Below are positions 6,601 to 50,874 of a DNA stretch of 64,000 nt, piece after piece. The notes beneath the pieces are model-generated. The model was given only the letters and a program-made list of their open reading frames with translations, ran no database searches and was not told the origin of the DNA. Origin of the DNA: Desulfobacterales bacterium (lineage in GTDB: Bacteria; Desulfobacterota; Desulfobacteria; Desulfobacterales; Desulfosalsimonadaceae); NCBI GenBank assembly GCA_018335195.1, contig JAGXKN010000008.1, positions 1 through 64,000 on the forward strand. Reading direction: 5' to 3'. The position numbers and the translations under genes are program-made. Every line of letters begins with the position of its first letter. Positions within the stretch are counted from its first letter, which is position 1.

Positions 6601-7440
6601 TCAAAATTTTAAGGCATCATACACCACCTGCCGCATTTGTGCAACCGGGGCATCAAGGCCGGTCCACAGGGAAAACTGAAGCGCGCCCTGGTATACGAAC
6701 ATGCCCACGCCGTCGATCACATGGCATCCGGCAGCTTCGGCTTTTGTGAGCAGTTTTGTGCGAAGGGGATTATAAATGATGTCCATGACATGCATTTCCG
6801 GGACAAGTGCGGATTCAGGCACCGGCACGGCATCCGTATCCGGGTGCATGCCAACGGGCGTGGTATTTACCAGGATATCAAAGGACCTGCCGGAGATCGC
6901 GTCCATGGAAACGGCCTGTGCCCCGAGGTCTTCTGCAAGCAGGCGCGCCTTTTCAGGAGTGCGGTTGGCAATATAAGGATCCGCCCCGCCGGCCTTTAAC
7001 GCATGAACAATCGCCCGGGCCGCCCCGCCTGCACCGATGATGAGCGCCTTTTTGCCTGAAACCGCAATGTGTTCCGCCAGGGCCTGCACCGCCCCCTGGC
7101 CGTCTGTGTTGCAGCCCCTAAGTTTTCCGCCGGAATTTACGAAGGTGTTTACCGCCCCGATCTGCCGGGCGTTTTCATCGATTTCATCAAGAAAGTCCAT
7201 GATCCCCACCTTGTGGGGAATAGTCACGCTGGCCCCGCGGATCCCCAGGGCGCGGATGCCGGCGGCCGCGCCTTTGGCATCCGCGGTGTCAAATGCCGCG
7301 TAAACGCCGTCGCATCCGGCAGCGGCAAAGGCCCGGTTTTGCATCAGCGGGCTTAAGCTGTGGCCCACGGGGTGGCCGATCACACAGTACACGGGAGTTT
7401 TTGCGCTTATTTCCATGCTATTTTTCCGTGATGGTTTCAT
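6601..7440 (-). CDS. aroE: shikimate dehydrogenase (NADP)
   Basis: Reduces 3-dehydroshikimate to shikimate. The 279-residue protein has the substrate motif GHPVGHSLSPLMQNRAF, the catalytic lysine in VTIPHKVGIMDFLDEID, NTDGQGAVQAL, the dinucleotide loop GAGGAARAIVHAL and NRTPEKA, which favours NADP. The first residues (MKPSRKNSMEISAKTP) may be too long. An internal ATG at MEISAKTP is an alternative start, because the annotated start overlaps the end of the dehydroquinate synthase gene by 23 bases. No 3-dehydroquinate dehydratase gene lies in this operon, so that step must be encoded elsewhere. Confidence 0.95.
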   Translation of the reverse strand: MKPSRKNSMEISAKTPVYCVIGHPVGHSLSPLMQNRAFAAAGCDGVYAAFDTADAKGAAAGIRALGIRGASVTIPHKVGIMDFLDEIDENARQIGAVNTFVNSGGKLRGCNTDGQGAVQALAEHIAVSGKKALIIGAGGAARAIVHALKAGGADPYIANRTPEKARLLAEDLGAQAVSMDAISGRSFDILVNTTPVGMHPDTDAVPVPESALVPEMHVMDIIYNPLRTKLLTKAEAAGCHVIDGVGMFVYQGALQFSLWTGLDAPVAQMRQVVYDALKF

Positions 7441-8413
7441 CGATTTTCATGCCGAAATGCCGGCCCGCGTCCTCGGTTGCGGCAAGCACGCGGTCTCCTG
7501 GCTTGAGCACGGCAACAGAAACGGCCTTGCCGTCCGGGTCTGTCAGCCGGATGGTTTCCGCGTTCTGGACAATGGTGGAGATTTCACGGTCCCCGATTTT
7601 TGCCTTCACCATCATCAAAGGGCGCTTTTCGATTTTCAGGCGCCCCACGATACCGGCACTGGTCTCTCCCCTGTGGTTTACCAAAAGGACCTCGTCTCCT
7701 GCTGCCAGCTCCGAGAGATACCGGGTTTTTCCGTCAGGCACGCGGGTATAGGCGTGCACCGGTCCGGCGTTTACCCGGAAAGGGCGCGGGGCGACATACG
7801 GATTGGAAACACTTTCCGAATGCACCAGGAAAAGCGCCGAGCTGGCATTGCCCACAAGCATGCCCTCGCCCGGCCTCATATCGGAACAGGTGTCCACGCA
7901 CACGCGATCACCCATGCCCAGGGGTTTTAATTCCGTGATTTCAGCGATATCCAGGGCGATGGTCTCGGTTTCGGTCTTGAGCACGGACAGCGCCTTTTTC
8001 AGGTCTGCCGCATCCGAGGGGATGTAGAGGATGTGGCTTACCCCCTTTTCCAGTATGCCGAAGGCCGTGCGCGCCTCGTCCAGGTTCTCCACCCGGGCAA
8101 TTACATCCGCGCCCCTGGCAATCAGGTTTTCCAGCGGTATCACGGTCCAGTCGCCGCAGGTGAGGATCACCTTTTTCTCCCGGGCCAGCCGGGCGATTTC
8201 TTCTTCGTCTTCGCTGTCGGTGACTTCATAATACACAACATCTGTACCGATTTGCAAATCCCCGTCCTCGGATATGGTCCGGATGCGGCCCAGGGACTTG
8301 GCCGTATCCGCGTATCCGGGCGGAAGAACGAGACCGTCTGCCCCGCCTTCAAGTGCTGTGGTGGCCAGTTTTTTATCCCAGGGATCCACCTGGACCCAGA
8401 TCTTTTTTCGCAT
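7418..8413 (-). CDS. 3-dehydroquinate synthase II (archaeal type)
   Basis: A 331-residue protein of the AroB' family. It oxidatively deaminates and cyclises 2-amino-3,7-dideoxy-D-threo-hept-6-ulosonate to 3-dehydroquinate with NAD. It is unrelated to the classical AroB. Family features visible are the start KKIWVQVDPWDKKLATTALEGGADG, LGMGDRVCVDTCSDMRPGEGMLVG and the PRPFRVNAGPVHAYTRVPDGKT segment. Pairing with the ADH synthase gene just upstream confirms the alternative pathway, which skips DAHP. A repeat element of about 207 bp separates it from that gene, so it may depend on readthrough across the element. The call is strong, and the activity is inferred from the family. Confidence 0.93.
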   Translation of the reverse strand: MRKKIWVQVDPWDKKLATTALEGGADGLVLPPGYADTAKSLGRIRTISEDGDLQIGTDVVYYEVTDSEDEEEIARLAREKKVILTCGDWTVIPLENLIARGADVIARVENLDEARTAFGILEKGVSHILYIPSDAADLKKALSVLKTETETIALDIAEITELKPLGMGDRVCVDTCSDMRPGEGMLVGNASSALFLVHSESVSNPYVAPRPFRVNAGPVHAYTRVPDGKTRYLSELAAGDEVLLVNHRGETSAGIVGRLKIEKRPLMMVKAKIGDREISTIVQNAETIRLTDPDGKAVSVAVLKPGDRVLAATEDAGRHFGMKIDETITEK

Positions 8414-8433
8414 GACCCACCTCTTTTGTGTTA

Positions 8434-8640
8434 CCTAAACTGAGCGTTTCAAATTTTTAAACTTTTTGTTTTCATATTATTTTAAAGGATTTAAATAAAT
8501 TTACCTTTAAAAATTTGCAACCCTCCGGGATTTCCAAATTTTCCGTATCTACTTTGTCAGCGGATGTTTCGCATAGTTGCCTATAGCATAACATCCGCTT
8601 CCTCGTATCTACGGCAAACTTGAAAATCGCTCGGTTTAGG
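8434..8640. repeat. dispersed repeat with terminal inverted repeats, copy 1
   Basis: About 207 bp bounded by CCTAAACTGAGCGTTT at the left and, in reverse complement, CCTAAACCGAGCGATTTTC at the right. An inverted and diverged copy lies at 50678-50874. Shared blocks include ATTTTAAAGGAT, AACCCTCCGGGATTTCCAA and CGGCAAACTTGAAAA. The middle forms a hairpin (GCGGATGTT / AACATCCGC at about 8559-8598). It fills the gap between the ADH synthase and dehydroquinate synthase II genes. It encodes no protein I can see and looks like a MITE-like or REP-like element. Confidence 0.8.
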
Positions 8641-8642
8641 TT

Positions 8643-9443
8643 TTATTTGCCCAGGATTTGCAAGCCGTCTTCCACGGAACCGTTTTCAAACAGGATTTTG
8701 GCCATGGCCCGGATCAGTTTCTGGGGGGTTGCGTGCTGAAATACGTTTCTGCCGATGGAAACCCCGGAGCCGCCCGCATCGGTTGCGCCCTTGACCATTT
8801 CCAGGATGTCCCGGTCTGAATCCATTTTCGCCCCGCCGGCAATCACCACCGGCACAGTGGCGCCTTCAACCACTTCCCGGAAGGTTTCAGGCGAGCCCGT
8901 GTATGAGACCTTGACGATGTCTGCGCCCATCTCGCAGCCTAGCCGGGCGGCATGCTTGACCACGGAAACGTCGTATTCGTCCCGGATTTTCTCTCCCCTG
9001 GGATAGACCATGGCCATCAGGGGCATGCCCCAGGTGCGGGCTTCGGCAGCCACCCGGCCGAAATCGTTTAGCATCTCCTTTTCCTGGTGGTCCCCGATAT
9101 TCACATGGATGGACACGGCATCCGCGCCCAGCTTTAAGGCCTCCTCCACGCTGCATACCAGGGTTTTGGAATGCGGGTACGGAGAAAGGCTTGTTGACGC
9201 CGACATGTGCACGATCAGGCCGATGTCCGAGCCCCGGCGCCGGTGGCCGGCACCGACCAGGCCCTTGTGCTCAACGATGGCATTGGCCCCGGCTTCTGCC
9301 ACGTTTGCCACCGCGCCCCGGATGTCGCTTACCCCGGCAACGGGCCCCACTGTCACGCCGTGGTCCATGGGCACAATGATGGTGCGGCCCGTGTTTCTGT
9401 CCATGATCCGTTCCATGCGGATCTGCTTGCCGATGATGGTCAT
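8643..9443 (-). CDS. 2-amino-3,7-dideoxy-D-threo-hept-6-ulosonate synthase
   Basis: First enzyme of the archaeal-type route to 3-dehydroquinate, an aldolase/transketolase-like member of the DeoC/FbaB family. The 266-residue TIM-barrel protein has [23 protein letters not shown], a lysine in [16 protein letters not shown] expected to form the Schiff base, and [19 protein letters not shown] for phosphate binding, followed by [15 protein letters not shown] class I fructose-bisphosphate aldolase was considered, but the partner dehydroquinate synthase II and the following aro genes point to ADH synthase. It is the first structural gene after the attenuator. A clear GGAGG precedes the ATG. Confidence 0.9.
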
Positions 9444-9480
9444 TTTCAGCCTCCTTTGCTTTGCGGTTTAAATACTCTGT

Positions 9481-9577
9481 CCGGGGACAGACTTTAAGTC
9501 TGTTCCCGGTCCCCCTGATTCGGGGACGGATTTCAAATCCGTCCCCGGGCGGCTAGGACAGAATTAAATTCTGTCCC
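9481..9577. repeat. three tandem palindromes of one type
   Basis: Three palindromes lie side by side: 9481-9509, 9521-9547 (CGGGGACGGATTT / AAATCCGTCCCCG) and 9556-9576 (GGACAGAATT / AATTCTGTCC). Each follows the plan GGGGACrGAwtt-AAwTCyGTCCCC, with differences on one arm matched on the other. They lie in the transcribed leader, between the second terminator and the ADH synthase start. Confidence 0.75.
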
Positions 9578-9596
9578 TGGTTGTCCGGGTAACCAC

Positions 9597-9628
9597 AAAA
9601 AAAGCCGCAAGGGAGTTCCCCCGCGGCT
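9597..9628 (-). terminator. second intrinsic terminator of the aromatic leader
   Basis: On the minus strand a GCCGC / GCGGC stem with an inner GGGA/TCCC helix is followed by seven Us (plus-strand A-run 9597-9603). It lies directly downstream of the first leader terminator and would reinforce it. Confidence 0.7.
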
Positions 9629-9640
9629 GTTTTTGAAAAC

Positions 9641-9679
9641 AAAAAAGCCGCGGGCAGTTTCGGGTCTGCCTGCGGCTTT
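9641..9679 (-). terminator. attenuator terminator of the aromatic operon
   Basis: The minus-strand RNA forms AAAGCCGC-a-GGCAG (9679-9666) paired with CTGCC-c-GCGGCTTT (9657-9644), followed by a U-run. This is a canonical intrinsic terminator 28 bases after the stop codon of the leader peptide. Its 5' arm shares 9670-9666 with the antiterminator target. Confidence 0.85.
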
Positions 9680-9729
9680 GAAGATTTATGTGATTTCAGG
9701 ACTTCATCAGCGCGCCGGCGGCAGACCCG
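9661..9729 (-). promoter_or_regulatory. antiterminator pairing of the aromatic attenuator
   Basis: RNA segment 9729-9720 (CGGGUCUGCC), inside the last codons of the leader peptide, is perfectly complementary over 10 bases to 9670-9661 (GGCAGACCCG). Four more G-C pairs are possible after a two-base mismatch. The target includes five bases of the attenuator terminator's 5' arm, so the two structures exclude each other. Confidence 0.8.
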
Positions 9730-9790
9730 TTGCGTAAAAATAATAATAGGCGTAATAAAATCGGGGGCTGCCGGTATTCATTGCGTTCAT
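9707..9790 (-). CDS. leader peptide with Phe/Tyr run (transcription attenuation)
   Basis: A 27-codon minus-strand reading frame (ATG at 9790; a second in-frame ATG at 9781) contains FYYAYYYFY at positions 9760-9734: six Tyr and two Phe codons in nine. It then ends ATGLPPAR and TGA at 9709-9707. A GGAG lies about 12 bases before the first ATG. A promoter lies 60-90 bases upstream and an intrinsic terminator 28 bases downstream, and the next genes make aromatic precursors. This is the organisation of pheA-type leader peptides: scarcity of charged tRNA-Phe or tRNA-Tyr should stall the ribosome, free RNA segment 9729-9720 and block the terminator. A stall on the last Tyr codon would partly cover that segment, so early codons should matter most. 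Confidence 0.85.
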   Translation of the reverse strand: MNAMNTGSPRFYYAYYYFYATGLPPAR

Positions 9791-9853
9791 GGCGCTGTTT
9801 GTCTCCGGGTTGAAAATGGTTTTTACTGTTCCGAGCTTAATCTTTCGTGCCGC

Positions 9854-9882
9854 AGTTTTCCGAAATCGTCCCGGCTTGTCAA
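9854..9882 (-). promoter_or_regulatory. promoter of the aromatic operon leader
   Basis: Minus strand: consensus TTGACA (plus 9877-9882), a 17-bp spacer, then AAAACT (plus 9854-9859). The -10 is weak. The predicted start near 9847 leaves about 57 bases before the leader peptide ATG. Confidence 0.55.
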
Positions 9883-9895
9883 GCCTTTTTTTTAA

Positions 9896-10125
9896 TATTG
9901 ATGGCTTCGTAAAAAGCTGTTTATTCCGCTGCGGCGGCATTTTTGCAGAAAGAAAATCCGTAAGCACCTTGGCTGATCGGCGGCGCGAAAAAGGCGTTTC
10001 CTCGCTCCAGGAGCCTCTTCGAGTCTCAATTTCCGCTCGGAAACCCGCTTTTCCGCACCGCCGTCAGGTCAATGAAGTGCAATTTCGAAAGAGCGAAAAA
10101 TAGGGTTTCCCTGGAAACCGGACAA
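9896..10125. repeat. intergenic repeat-like stretch beginning TTGATGGCTTCGTAAAAAG
   Basis: The first 18 bases after position 9896 also occur, reverse complemented, at the right end of the element at 36942-37055. The rest is GC-rich, has no convincing gene, and ends near a GGTTTCC / GGAAACC palindrome (about 10107-10122). I see no coding capacity between the aromatic promoter and the terminators at 10202. Confidence 0.5.
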
Positions 10126-10201
10126 ATGTTATGCCCACCAGACAATAAAAGAGATAACATTCCGATTTTACTTAAACACTTAACACTTCAAACTTAACAC
10201 T

Positions 10202-10273
10202 GCCTGTAAAAAAACACTTTTTACAGGCTTATTAAAACTTAACACGGCCTGTACAAACAAAGTTTTTACAGGC
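10202..10273. repeat. duplicated hairpins downstream of the bifunctional nuclease gene
   Basis: Two related hairpins lie at 10202-10228 (GCCTGTAAAAA / TTTTTACAGGC) and 10247-10273 (GCCTGTAcAAA / TTTTTACAGGC). Each is preceded by CTTAACAC, giving a tandem unit of about 45 bp. The second touches the stop codon of the minus-strand gene, so they may act as terminators for it. Confidence 0.65.
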
Positions 10274-10770
10274 TACACCTTGTATTTGCCGAAATCCTCG
10301 GGCGAGAGATTCTGCAAATACTCGGCCCATTTCTGCCCCTGGTCGCTGTCGTCCTCCACTTCGTATTCCCCGTTTTTGACCTTGAGCTGCTGGACCACCG
10401 TATCATCTACATAAATGTCGGCCTTCAGGCGCAGTGCTATGGCAATGGCATCGCTTGGCCTGGAGTCCACGATAAACTCCCGGTCTTCGGCCTTGCAGTA
10501 CATCTTGGCGTAAAACGTGTTGTTCTGCAGGTCGCATACCTCGATGCGGGGGACCGTGATTTCGGCCTGTTCGATGAAGTTCTTGAACAGATCGTGGGTC
10601 ATGGGTCGCTCAAACTCGATGTTCTGCAACACGGACGCAATGGAAGCCGCCTCTGTCAGCCCGATCCAGATCGGCACCGAAAACTCCTCGTCCCTGGCAT
10701 TTAAAATCAGAATCGGCGCGTTGGAATTCGGGTCAATGGCAAGGCCGGCAACCGTCATTTCATGCAGCAT
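10273..10770 (-). CDS. bifunctional nuclease (BFN/DUF151) domain protein
   Basis: A 165-residue protein made almost wholly of a BFN domain. It has APILILNARDEEFSVPIWIGLTEAASIASVLQ near the N-terminus, TAHDLF-like and PRIEVCDLQNNTFYAKMYC strands, and the signature DSRPSDAIAIALRLKADIYVDD. Plant and bacterial homologues are reported to have DNase/RNase activity, but in most bacteria the role is unknown. The gene starts inside the last 11 bases of miaB, so it is probably co-transcribed and coupled with it. The acidic C-terminal tail is typical of Desulfobacterota members. Confidence 0.9.
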   Translation of the reverse strand: MLHEMTVAGLAIDPNSNAPILILNARDEEFSVPIWIGLTEAASIASVLQNIEFERPMTHDLFKNFIEQAEITVPRIEVCDLQNNTFYAKMYCKAEDREFIVDSRPSDAIAIALRLKADIYVDDTVVQQLKVKNGEYEVEDDSDQGQKWAEYLQNLSPEDFGKYKV

Positions 10771-50640: not shown

Positions 50641-50677
50641 GAAACTGTGGACATTTCTTTTCATATTTATATTTATA

Positions 50678-50874
50678 CCTAAATTGAGCGTTTTTCAAGT
50701 TTGCCGGATATACAAGGAAGATGCAGACTCGCTATAGTAAGCTATGCGAGGCTGCATCTGACGCAGTAGATGCGGTAAACTTGGAAATCCCGGAGGGTTT
50801 CAGATCTTTAAAATAGAAATGGGTGTTATCCTTTAAAATAAATTGCTTTTAAAAATCTGAAACGCTCAATTTAG
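50678..50874. repeat. dispersed repeat with terminal inverted repeats, copy 2
   Basis: CCTAAATTGAGCG at the left and AACGCTCAATTTAG at the right bound 197 bp. It is the inverted, diverged relative of 8434-8640. Its central hairpin is GATGCAG / CTGCATC (with CTCGC / GCGAG inside), where copy 1 has CGGATGTT / AACATCCG. The stem is therefore kept while its sequence changes. The left end lies close to the start of the lpdA remnant, and its ATG at 50698 is probably not used. Confidence 0.8.

Follow-up and report, generated by a model that had tools for sequence, protein, structure and literature searches.

A phenylalanine/tyrosine-rich leader peptide with two tandem terminators very probably attenuates an archaeal-type aromatic operon in a relative of sulfate-reducing bacteria

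Introduction

What decides whether an archaeal-type aromatic operon is transcribed when a short reading frame crowded with phenylalanine and tyrosine codons lies just ahead of it? The question is raised by a locus of a Desulfobacterales bacterium, a relative of sulfate-reducing bacteria, in which such a frame precedes the gene for 2-amino-3,7-dideoxy-D-threo-hept-6-ulosonate (ADH) synthase. The trp, pheA and pheST leaders of Escherichia coli each read one amino acid and each control one terminator. An earlier note on the window (the whole stretch of 64,000 nt analysed here, positions 1 to 64,000 of contig JAGXKN010000008.1 in assembly GCA_018335195.1) had proposed a Phe/Tyr attenuator for this operon. 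We have compared the locus with its orthologues in relatives, with other loci of the same genome and with the wider phylum. We are confident that the ADH-synthase operon is controlled by a ribosome-mediated transcription attenuator of the trp/his kind, in which two terminators are probably coupled.

Methods

ADH synthase was searched for in 40 relatives and then in 291 genomes of the class, 130 of which match at 1e-90. Upstream DNA was read for 26 orthologues (first set) and for 90 more (second set), the latter being 90 of the 92 new class orthologues at E <= 1e-112, with G282 and G284 left out. Counts of leaders exclude L012, L018, L042, L049 and L053, where a contig end lies too near the gene. 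The scan for leaders at paralogous ADH synthases covered L027 and L121-L130 and left out L028-L030 (26-28% identical).

Twenty-four loci served to build a covariance model, R1, which starts just 5' of the antiterminator strand (region 2 below), after the aromatic run, and its base pairs are those of terminators 1 and 2 only; the antiterminator (2:3) and the pairing of regions 4 and 5 are absent from the model. The alignment drew on 100 sources and has 98 rows, L013 and L072 having scored under the cut-off. The second set contributed 76 of its 90 loci, and 14 with truncated, weak or no R1 matches were excluded (L042, L049, L062, L090, L091, L097, L102, L107, L108, L109, L114, L115, L117 and L118).

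Results

The operon and the parts of its leader

All parts of the locus are read on the minus strand. The operon begins with ADH synthase (9443-8643; TIGR01949, 354.7 bits against a cut-off of 299.45) and continues with 3-dehydroquinate (DHQ) synthase II (8413-7418; PF01959 and NF002627 above cut-off), shikimate dehydrogenase AroE (7440-6601; TIGR00507 above cut-off), EPSP synthase (6587-5325; TIGR01356 above cut-off), shikimate kinase (5328-4798; PF01202 above cut-off, the best NCBIfam models slightly below theirs) and chorismate synthase (4811-3759; TIGR00033 above cut-off). The archaeal-type aromatic operon named in the earlier note is borne out. The gap between these two genes (8642-8414) is a dispersed repeat with 42 matches in its own genome, itself included, many of them about 200 bases long at 72-77% identity; one of these matches lies at 50677-50874 of the window, and L012 has a part copy where its contig ends, 5' of ADH synthase.

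Upstream of ADH synthase is the frame MNAMNTGSPRFYYAYYYFYATGLPPAR (9790-9707; ATG 9790-9788, stop 9709-9707), 27 codons and a stop as originally described. Its codons 11-19 (9760-9734) spell FYYAYYYFY, eight of the nine being Phe or Tyr codons, and it contains no Trp. The sequence GGAG at 9806-9803, 12 nt 5' of the ATG, is a candidate Shine-Dalgarno site. Region 2 (9729-9720; CGGGUCUGCC), the antiterminator strand, coincides with the codons of TGLP and is complementary over exactly 10 nt to region 3 (9670-9661; GGCAGACCCG), which overlaps the 5' arm of terminator 1; the perfect pairing drawn in the earlier note is therefore present. Region 1 (9774-9762), a partner of region 2 flanking the aromatic codons, is indicated by folds and by a helix test and would act as the protector (1:2).

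Two intrinsic terminators had been placed before ADH synthase, and conservation and folds recover both, ending at 9641 and 9597. Terminator 1 (3:4; 9679-9641) is a hairpin at 9679-9644 with a U-run to 9641, and terminator 2 (5:6; 9634-9597) is a hairpin at 9628-9603 with a U-run to 9597. Covariation and folds further define region 4 (9654-9641), the 3' arm and U-run of terminator 1, as the partner of region 5 (9634-9620), which forms terminator 2's 5' arm. The earlier account had missed two things: the hairpin 1:2, and the pairing 4:5, by which terminator 2 is tied to the switch. As a whole the leader RNA (9850-9597) has a folding z of -3.64, and 1 of 200 shuffles was equally low.

The promoter proposed for this locus is not borne out as a consensus site. 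A perfect TTGACA at 9882-9877, found by eye, is a candidate -35 box, but the hexamer at the -10 position 17 nt past it (AAAACT, 9859-9854) is poor and a consensus scan of 9400-10300 returned no promoter-like sites. Promoter scores of at least 10 occur in the upstream regions of 37 of 107 relatives, against 7 in shuffles; the relatives as a group exceed chance, and the window's own promoter is weak by the consensus scan.

About 150 nt separate terminator 2 from the start of ADH synthase, and they hold three palindromes of the type GGACAGA-TT-AA-TCTGTCC (9485-9576). The pattern, with at most two mismatches, occurs at 14 places in the genome and at none in a reversed control, and the three copies in the 5' untranslated region look like a REP-type element inserted there.

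The leader peptide in relatives

A Phe/Tyr-rich leader lies upstream of ADH synthase in 109 of the 111 orthologues with enough upstream DNA (24 of 24 in the first set and 85 of 87 in the second). One of the two others, L115, has no leader in its upstream DNA; in L069 the RNA element is present (68.1 bits) and the aromatic run is broken by a stop. The relatives of the window genome are, among those with titles, mostly Desulfobacterales from environmental samples. The aromatic runs of the 109 leaders comprise 354 Phe, 502 Tyr and 75 Trp among 1063 residues. Phe and Tyr occur in every leader and Trp in 66 of the 109, a feature of the relatives' predicted peptides that the earlier account had missed. 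Leaders containing Trp include those of L014 and of Desulfonema magnum 4be13 (L043 and L201), a cultured relative. Most of the leaders end in GLPxxR or close to it.

Chance can be dismissed as the source of such frames. A frame with at least seven aromatic residues in ten was found in the sense direction in 102 of 109 upstream regions, which had been preselected for a frame with at least five in ten, compared with 3 of 109 in antisense and 0 of 327 dinucleotide shuffles; at six or more in ten the counts are 108 in sense, 14 in antisense and 13 in shuffles (109, 109 and 327 tested). Shine-Dalgarno-like sites lie 5' of 77 of the 109 leader starts, against 15.4 at random positions, and the leader frame is probably translated. 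One could suppose that the terminators simply belong to an upstream gene and that the frame arose by chance, since genes for MiaB and a bifunctional nuclease lie upstream of the leader on the same strand; the presence of the leader at 109 of 111 orthologous loci, the covariation described below and the Shine-Dalgarno-like sites reduce the probability of this to practically nil.

Paralogous ADH synthases give a different picture. L027 has no leader, and among L121-L126 nothing was found in five, with L122 offering only frames of five aromatic residues in ten.

Conservation and covariation of the RNA helices

The earlier note had staked its reading in part on conservation in related genomes. There the leader is kept at 109 of 111 loci, and in the 98 aligned loci the antiterminator and both terminators are, by comparison of sequences, conserved and covarying. 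The antiterminator 2:3 is paired in 77.0% of cells (84.6% in the main helix and 53.3% in the inner part) and the 4:5 helix in 93.4%; the corresponding figures for terminators 1 and 2, 94.6% and 94.2%, are biased upward because the alignment was fitted to these two hairpins by R1. Covariation scores of 2:3, 4:5, terminator 1 and terminator 2 each exceeded all 500 shuffles and all slid versions, a shuffle control that can be inflated by the relatedness of the loci. Extra pair types were less distinctive, at 36 for 2:3 against 33.0 in shuffles (a value reached by 70 of 500) and 19 for 4:5 against 16.0 (reached by 24 of 500). The antiterminator strand is GGUCUGCC, and the constant GLP codons of the leader are therefore explained as RNA.

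The protector hairpin was assessed separately. A motif like GGCAGA upstream of the run can pair with UCUGCC of region 2, and in a test for contiguous helices the best helix between regions 1 and 2 surpassed all 20 shuffles in 59 of 108 leaders, where about 5 are expected. Energy folds alone separate poorly, giving 1:2 in 104 of 109 leaders against 78.5 in shuffles.

By a simple rule, 79 of the 98 rows have both terminators, 12 the first only and 7 the second only; in four of these seven, terminator 1 is a single base short of the U-run rule. The 3:4 hairpin lacks a U-run in L026, L099 and L113 by the rule and in L097 and L107 by eye, and all five loci keep the leader and terminator 2. Terminator 2 would therefore be the sole terminator at these loci, and control there must run via 4:5.

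This last point bears on whether attenuation acts at terminator 1 only, with terminator 2 an independent, leaky second terminator or a backup and 4:5 a by-product of similar hairpins. The two hairpins are indeed alike, and their likeness could account for part of the 4:5 signal. In addition, 12 of 98 rows have no terminator 2 recognisable by the simple rule, 4:5 and terminator 2 are near balance in the window, and some measures of 4:5 fall within the range of shuffles: it has six pairs with double changes, and 39 of 500 shuffles gave at least as many, while two slid versions gave more. Against this reading, 4:5 is paired at the high frequency given above and its doubly changed cells number 29 against 11.4 in shuffles, transcripts that get past terminator 1 would be ended by a terminator 2 that was strong and unregulated, and the loci without a U-run at 3:4 retain both leader and terminator 2. 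We regard restriction of control to terminator 1 as unlikely, and a coupled pair of terminators as likely.

Could the RNA itself, or a protein bound to it, sense the amino acid? A riboswitch, a T-box or an RNA-binding protein with an incidental frame finds some encouragement in the best sub-threshold Rfam match of the window leader, the trpB motif RF04312, which is filed as a riboswitch candidate; the match was rejected at 27.9 bits against a gathering score of 59. RF00514 (His_leader) was likewise rejected, at 24.3 bits against 49. At the gathering scores of Rfam 15, no T-box or other curated cis-regulatory RNA was found, the window yielding only a tRNA and 15 loci nothing, and no Rfam family rose above threshold in the window leader or in those loci. 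The aligned region contains no large conserved structure beyond the attenuator helices, and the aromatic frame is far above chance. Sensing by RNA or protein is accordingly an extremely improbable account of the locus.

Predicted folds and the proposed switch

Truncated-RNA folds of the window reproduce the alternation expected of an attenuator in which a ribosome reads the leader. With RNA to 9597 and a ribosome on the first or a middle aromatic codon, the best fold combines 2:3 with 4:5 and completes neither terminator; placing the ribosome on the last Tyr codon or the stop codon gives both terminators, and leaving it out gives both together with 1:2. These folds agree with the earlier proposal that an early stall leaves 9729-9720 free and that a ribosome at the stop codon covers it.

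The balance among the helices is fine. RNA to 9660 without a ribosome prefers 2:3 over 1:2, and RNA ending at 9618-9612, where the 3' arm of terminator 2 is not yet out, has 4:5 as its best pairing in every ribosome state, including that at the stop codon. The choice between 4:5 and terminator 2 is a close one in the window: RNA to 9597 favours 4:5, and in a transcript about 3 nt longer 2:3 with terminator 2 is preferred. Full-length folds with a stalled ribosome at 24 loci, read by eye, gave the antiterminator at 6 and terminator 1 at 18, with 4:5 in 2. The antiterminator being best in only 6 of these 24 equilibrium folds, 2:3 must in most relatives hold by forming first; likewise, the preference for 2:3 at 9660 and for 4:5 at 9618-9612 in all states means that formation order must decide. 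The order of helix formation usually matters in attenuators, and from these modelled folds we infer that it must matter here.

The locus has three of the features by which trp, his and phe attenuators are recognised: a leader with a run of product codons, an intrinsic terminator before the first gene and an antiterminator that, freed by stalling, excludes the terminator (in the window folds and by covariation; at equilibrium in 6 of 24 loci). At the level of predicted pairings it also has the his-type chain, 1:2, 3:4 and 5:6 against 2:3 and 4:5. From the sequence elements, their conservation and covariation and the truncated-RNA folds we infer the transcription start, translation, stalling, termination and timing of a switch in which translation of the leader very probably decides whether the two tandem terminators form. 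With ample charged tRNA-Phe and tRNA-Tyr, the ribosome would reach the leader stop codon and cover region 2; terminators 1 and 2 would then form, and transcription would end before the operon. With no ribosome, region 1 would hold region 2 and the terminators would form too. When charged tRNA-Phe or tRNA-Tyr is short, the ribosome would stall early in the run, covering region 1 and freeing region 2, and in many relatives a shortage of tRNA-Trp would stall it likewise. Free region 2 would pair with region 3 and prevent terminator 1; region 4, freed in turn, would pair with region 5 and block terminator 2 while RNA polymerase passes. One stalled ribosome could disarm both terminators in the fashion of the his attenuator.

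Related elements in the same genome

The three best full-length matches of R1 in its own genome are this locus (107.9 bits), a trpE leader (37.7) and the leader of a DAHP synthase-prephenate dehydratase gene (29.8). Two partial matches to a terminator hairpin reach 31.4-32.0 bits, and matches at L136-L138 (25.8 to 28.8 bits) have no aromatic leader. With leaderless matches at up to 28.8 bits and partial ones at 31.4-32.0, the R1 score alone is therefore no proof in this range, and the leader decides.

The trpE leader peptide contains NWWWR; TrpE itself is above its NCBIfam cut-off in one test and slightly below it for the part tested in another. The DAHP synthase-prephenate dehydratase fusion, of 626 aa, lies on contig C36 of the same genome (L135; 1237-3117 in L168), and is preceded by a Phe-only leader, FFVFGRFFFGF, and by two terminator-like hairpins seen by eye. 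Upstream of a DAHP synthase-AroB pair, also in this genome, is a frame with FFWCW and a terminator by eye. DAHP synthase, prephenate dehydratase and AroB are all above NCBIfam cut-offs.

These leaders help in judging whether the peptide could be an arrest peptide that senses free aromatic amino acids as TnaC does, or a functional small protein. A conserved and probably translated leader is what such a role would call for. Leaders differ freely, however, in how many Phe, Tyr and Trp residues they have and in how these are arranged, the constant GLPxxR tail is accounted for by RNA pairing, and leaders of the same genome match the product of their operon, with Trp for trpE and Phe for prephenate dehydratase. 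A role for the peptide itself is thus very improbable.

Distribution in the phylum

Across the phylum, 108 of 297 genomes have an R1 match at 1e-6. An aromatic or Trp leader accompanies the best matches at 29 of 29 loci, six of them already counted, and was present at 17 of 20 weaker matches picked by hand, both counts standing without a shuffled control; the three weaker loci that lack one precede, by our reading, LeuA (two) and acetolactate synthase (one). R1 starts after the aromatic run, yet its matches carry aromatic or Trp leaders, which we count in favour of the attenuator.

Among the genes below R1 elements are, by eye, those for ADH synthase, DAHP synthases and TrpE. G034, a genome in one contig, has no ADH synthase by TIGR01949, and there a DAHP synthase is preceded by the same leader, with its antiterminator and its pair of terminators: as far as sequence can tell, the switch is the same and the enzyme different. 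Other leaders precede other kinds of gene. Trp-rich leaders lie before a TrpB-like enzyme (NCBIfam) in L264 and L265. Phe/Tyr-rich leaders lie before a PLP-dependent aminotransferase in L257 and L269 (NF005305 in L257), which is a candidate aromatic aminotransferase. Phe- or Tyr-rich leaders with a terminator element lie, by eye, before genes like those for branched-chain-type ABC binding proteins in L259, L262, L267 and L268; the product in L259 has no NCBIfam match, and the leaders suggest aromatic amino acid uptake.

Discussion

The comparisons support the earlier interpretation in substance. The mechanism is classical attenuation; its target, its breadth and the coupling of its terminators are new within the literature searched. 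We regard it as a well-supported variant that would read more amino acids, that probably couples two terminators and that is widespread. Among the literature titles listed, in which subscription journals are thinly covered, none describes such a leader in this phylum. A study of amino acid operon attenuation by Lopatovskaya, Seliverstov and Lyubetsky may include some of these leaders, and so may work by Vitreschak and colleagues.

The novelty claimed in the earlier note is consistent with the titles listed for this phylum, but control of the pathway's first enzyme by a leader is known from aroR of Corynebacterium glutamicum. According to the excerpts cited, the aroR leader, with its Phe-Tyr-Phe, controls aroF (DAHP synthase) via ribosome stalling (PMC11802643, PMC4046766). 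Both systems place the first enzyme of the aromatic pathway under a leader peptide, but aroR has three aromatic codons where the present leaders have a run of about 7-16, and acts on DAHP synthase in another phylum rather than on ADH synthase. In these excerpts aroR is reported to answer to Phe and not to Tyr, and they describe no tandem terminators. For Acholeplasma aroF, leader-peptide attenuation has been proposed for the uORFC-13-1 motif, which in the cited part of that report resembles the present element: a frame holding one or more Phe codons lies, together with a terminator, ahead of the DAHP synthase gene (PMC8632094). As given there, it differs in its 24 representatives from Acholeplasma and environmental sequences, its one or more Phe codons and its status as a proposal.

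In its logic the element matches the his operon attenuator, in which, as outlined in the cited excerpt (PMC10989985), an alternating chain (AB, CD, EF against BC, DE) lets one ribosome position set a far terminator. The his leader has His codons, and that excerpt describes the EF hairpin with uridines; here, by contrast, the middle hairpin mostly qualifies as a terminator as well, in 91 of 98 rows by the simple rule. The E. coli trp, pheA and pheST leaders share the runs of product amino acids and the 1:2, 2:3, 3:4 logic, as summarised in the part cited (PMC11802643), but govern branch or synthetase genes whereas the present leader governs the common pathway. The trpB motif RF04312 likewise has two hairpins, the second a terminator, near amino acid genes. 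That motif belongs to Firmicutes and Fusobacteria and is, in the cited portion of its description, a riboswitch candidate whose authors leave room for attenuation (PMC11109978).

Judged by the leader, ADH synthase and DHQ synthase II appear to respond to how much Phe and Tyr is available, and in relatives to Trp as well. Two routes to 3-dehydroquinate are encoded in the window genome, one through ADH synthase and DHQ synthase II (7418-9443) and one through DAHP synthase and AroB (L171). On the evidence of DNA alone, the Phe/Tyr leader argues that the archaeal-type route feeds aromatic amino acid synthesis, even beside DAHP synthase and AroB. More generally, RNA regulation in this phylum becomes open to prediction: the leader names the amino acids that are sensed, and where a transporter or an aminotransferase has such an element, the make-up of its leader hints at the substrate. 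Two serial terminators under one ribosome would be a natural low-leak design.

Taken together, these observations could describe a portable all-aromatic cassette common in the phylum: an OR gate for Phe, Tyr and Trp in which one stalled ribosome throws two serial terminators. Such a cassette would have been retained above different enzymes, ADH synthase across most of the class and DAHP synthase in G034, and would coordinate an aromatic regulon made up of both kinds of synthase, trp genes, one aminotransferase and candidate transporters. We offer this joint reading tentatively, giving it a little under an even chance.

A leader of a different make occurs at a second, paralogous ADH synthase (57-63% identical) in L127-L130, where it is Phe-rich with Trp near its end.
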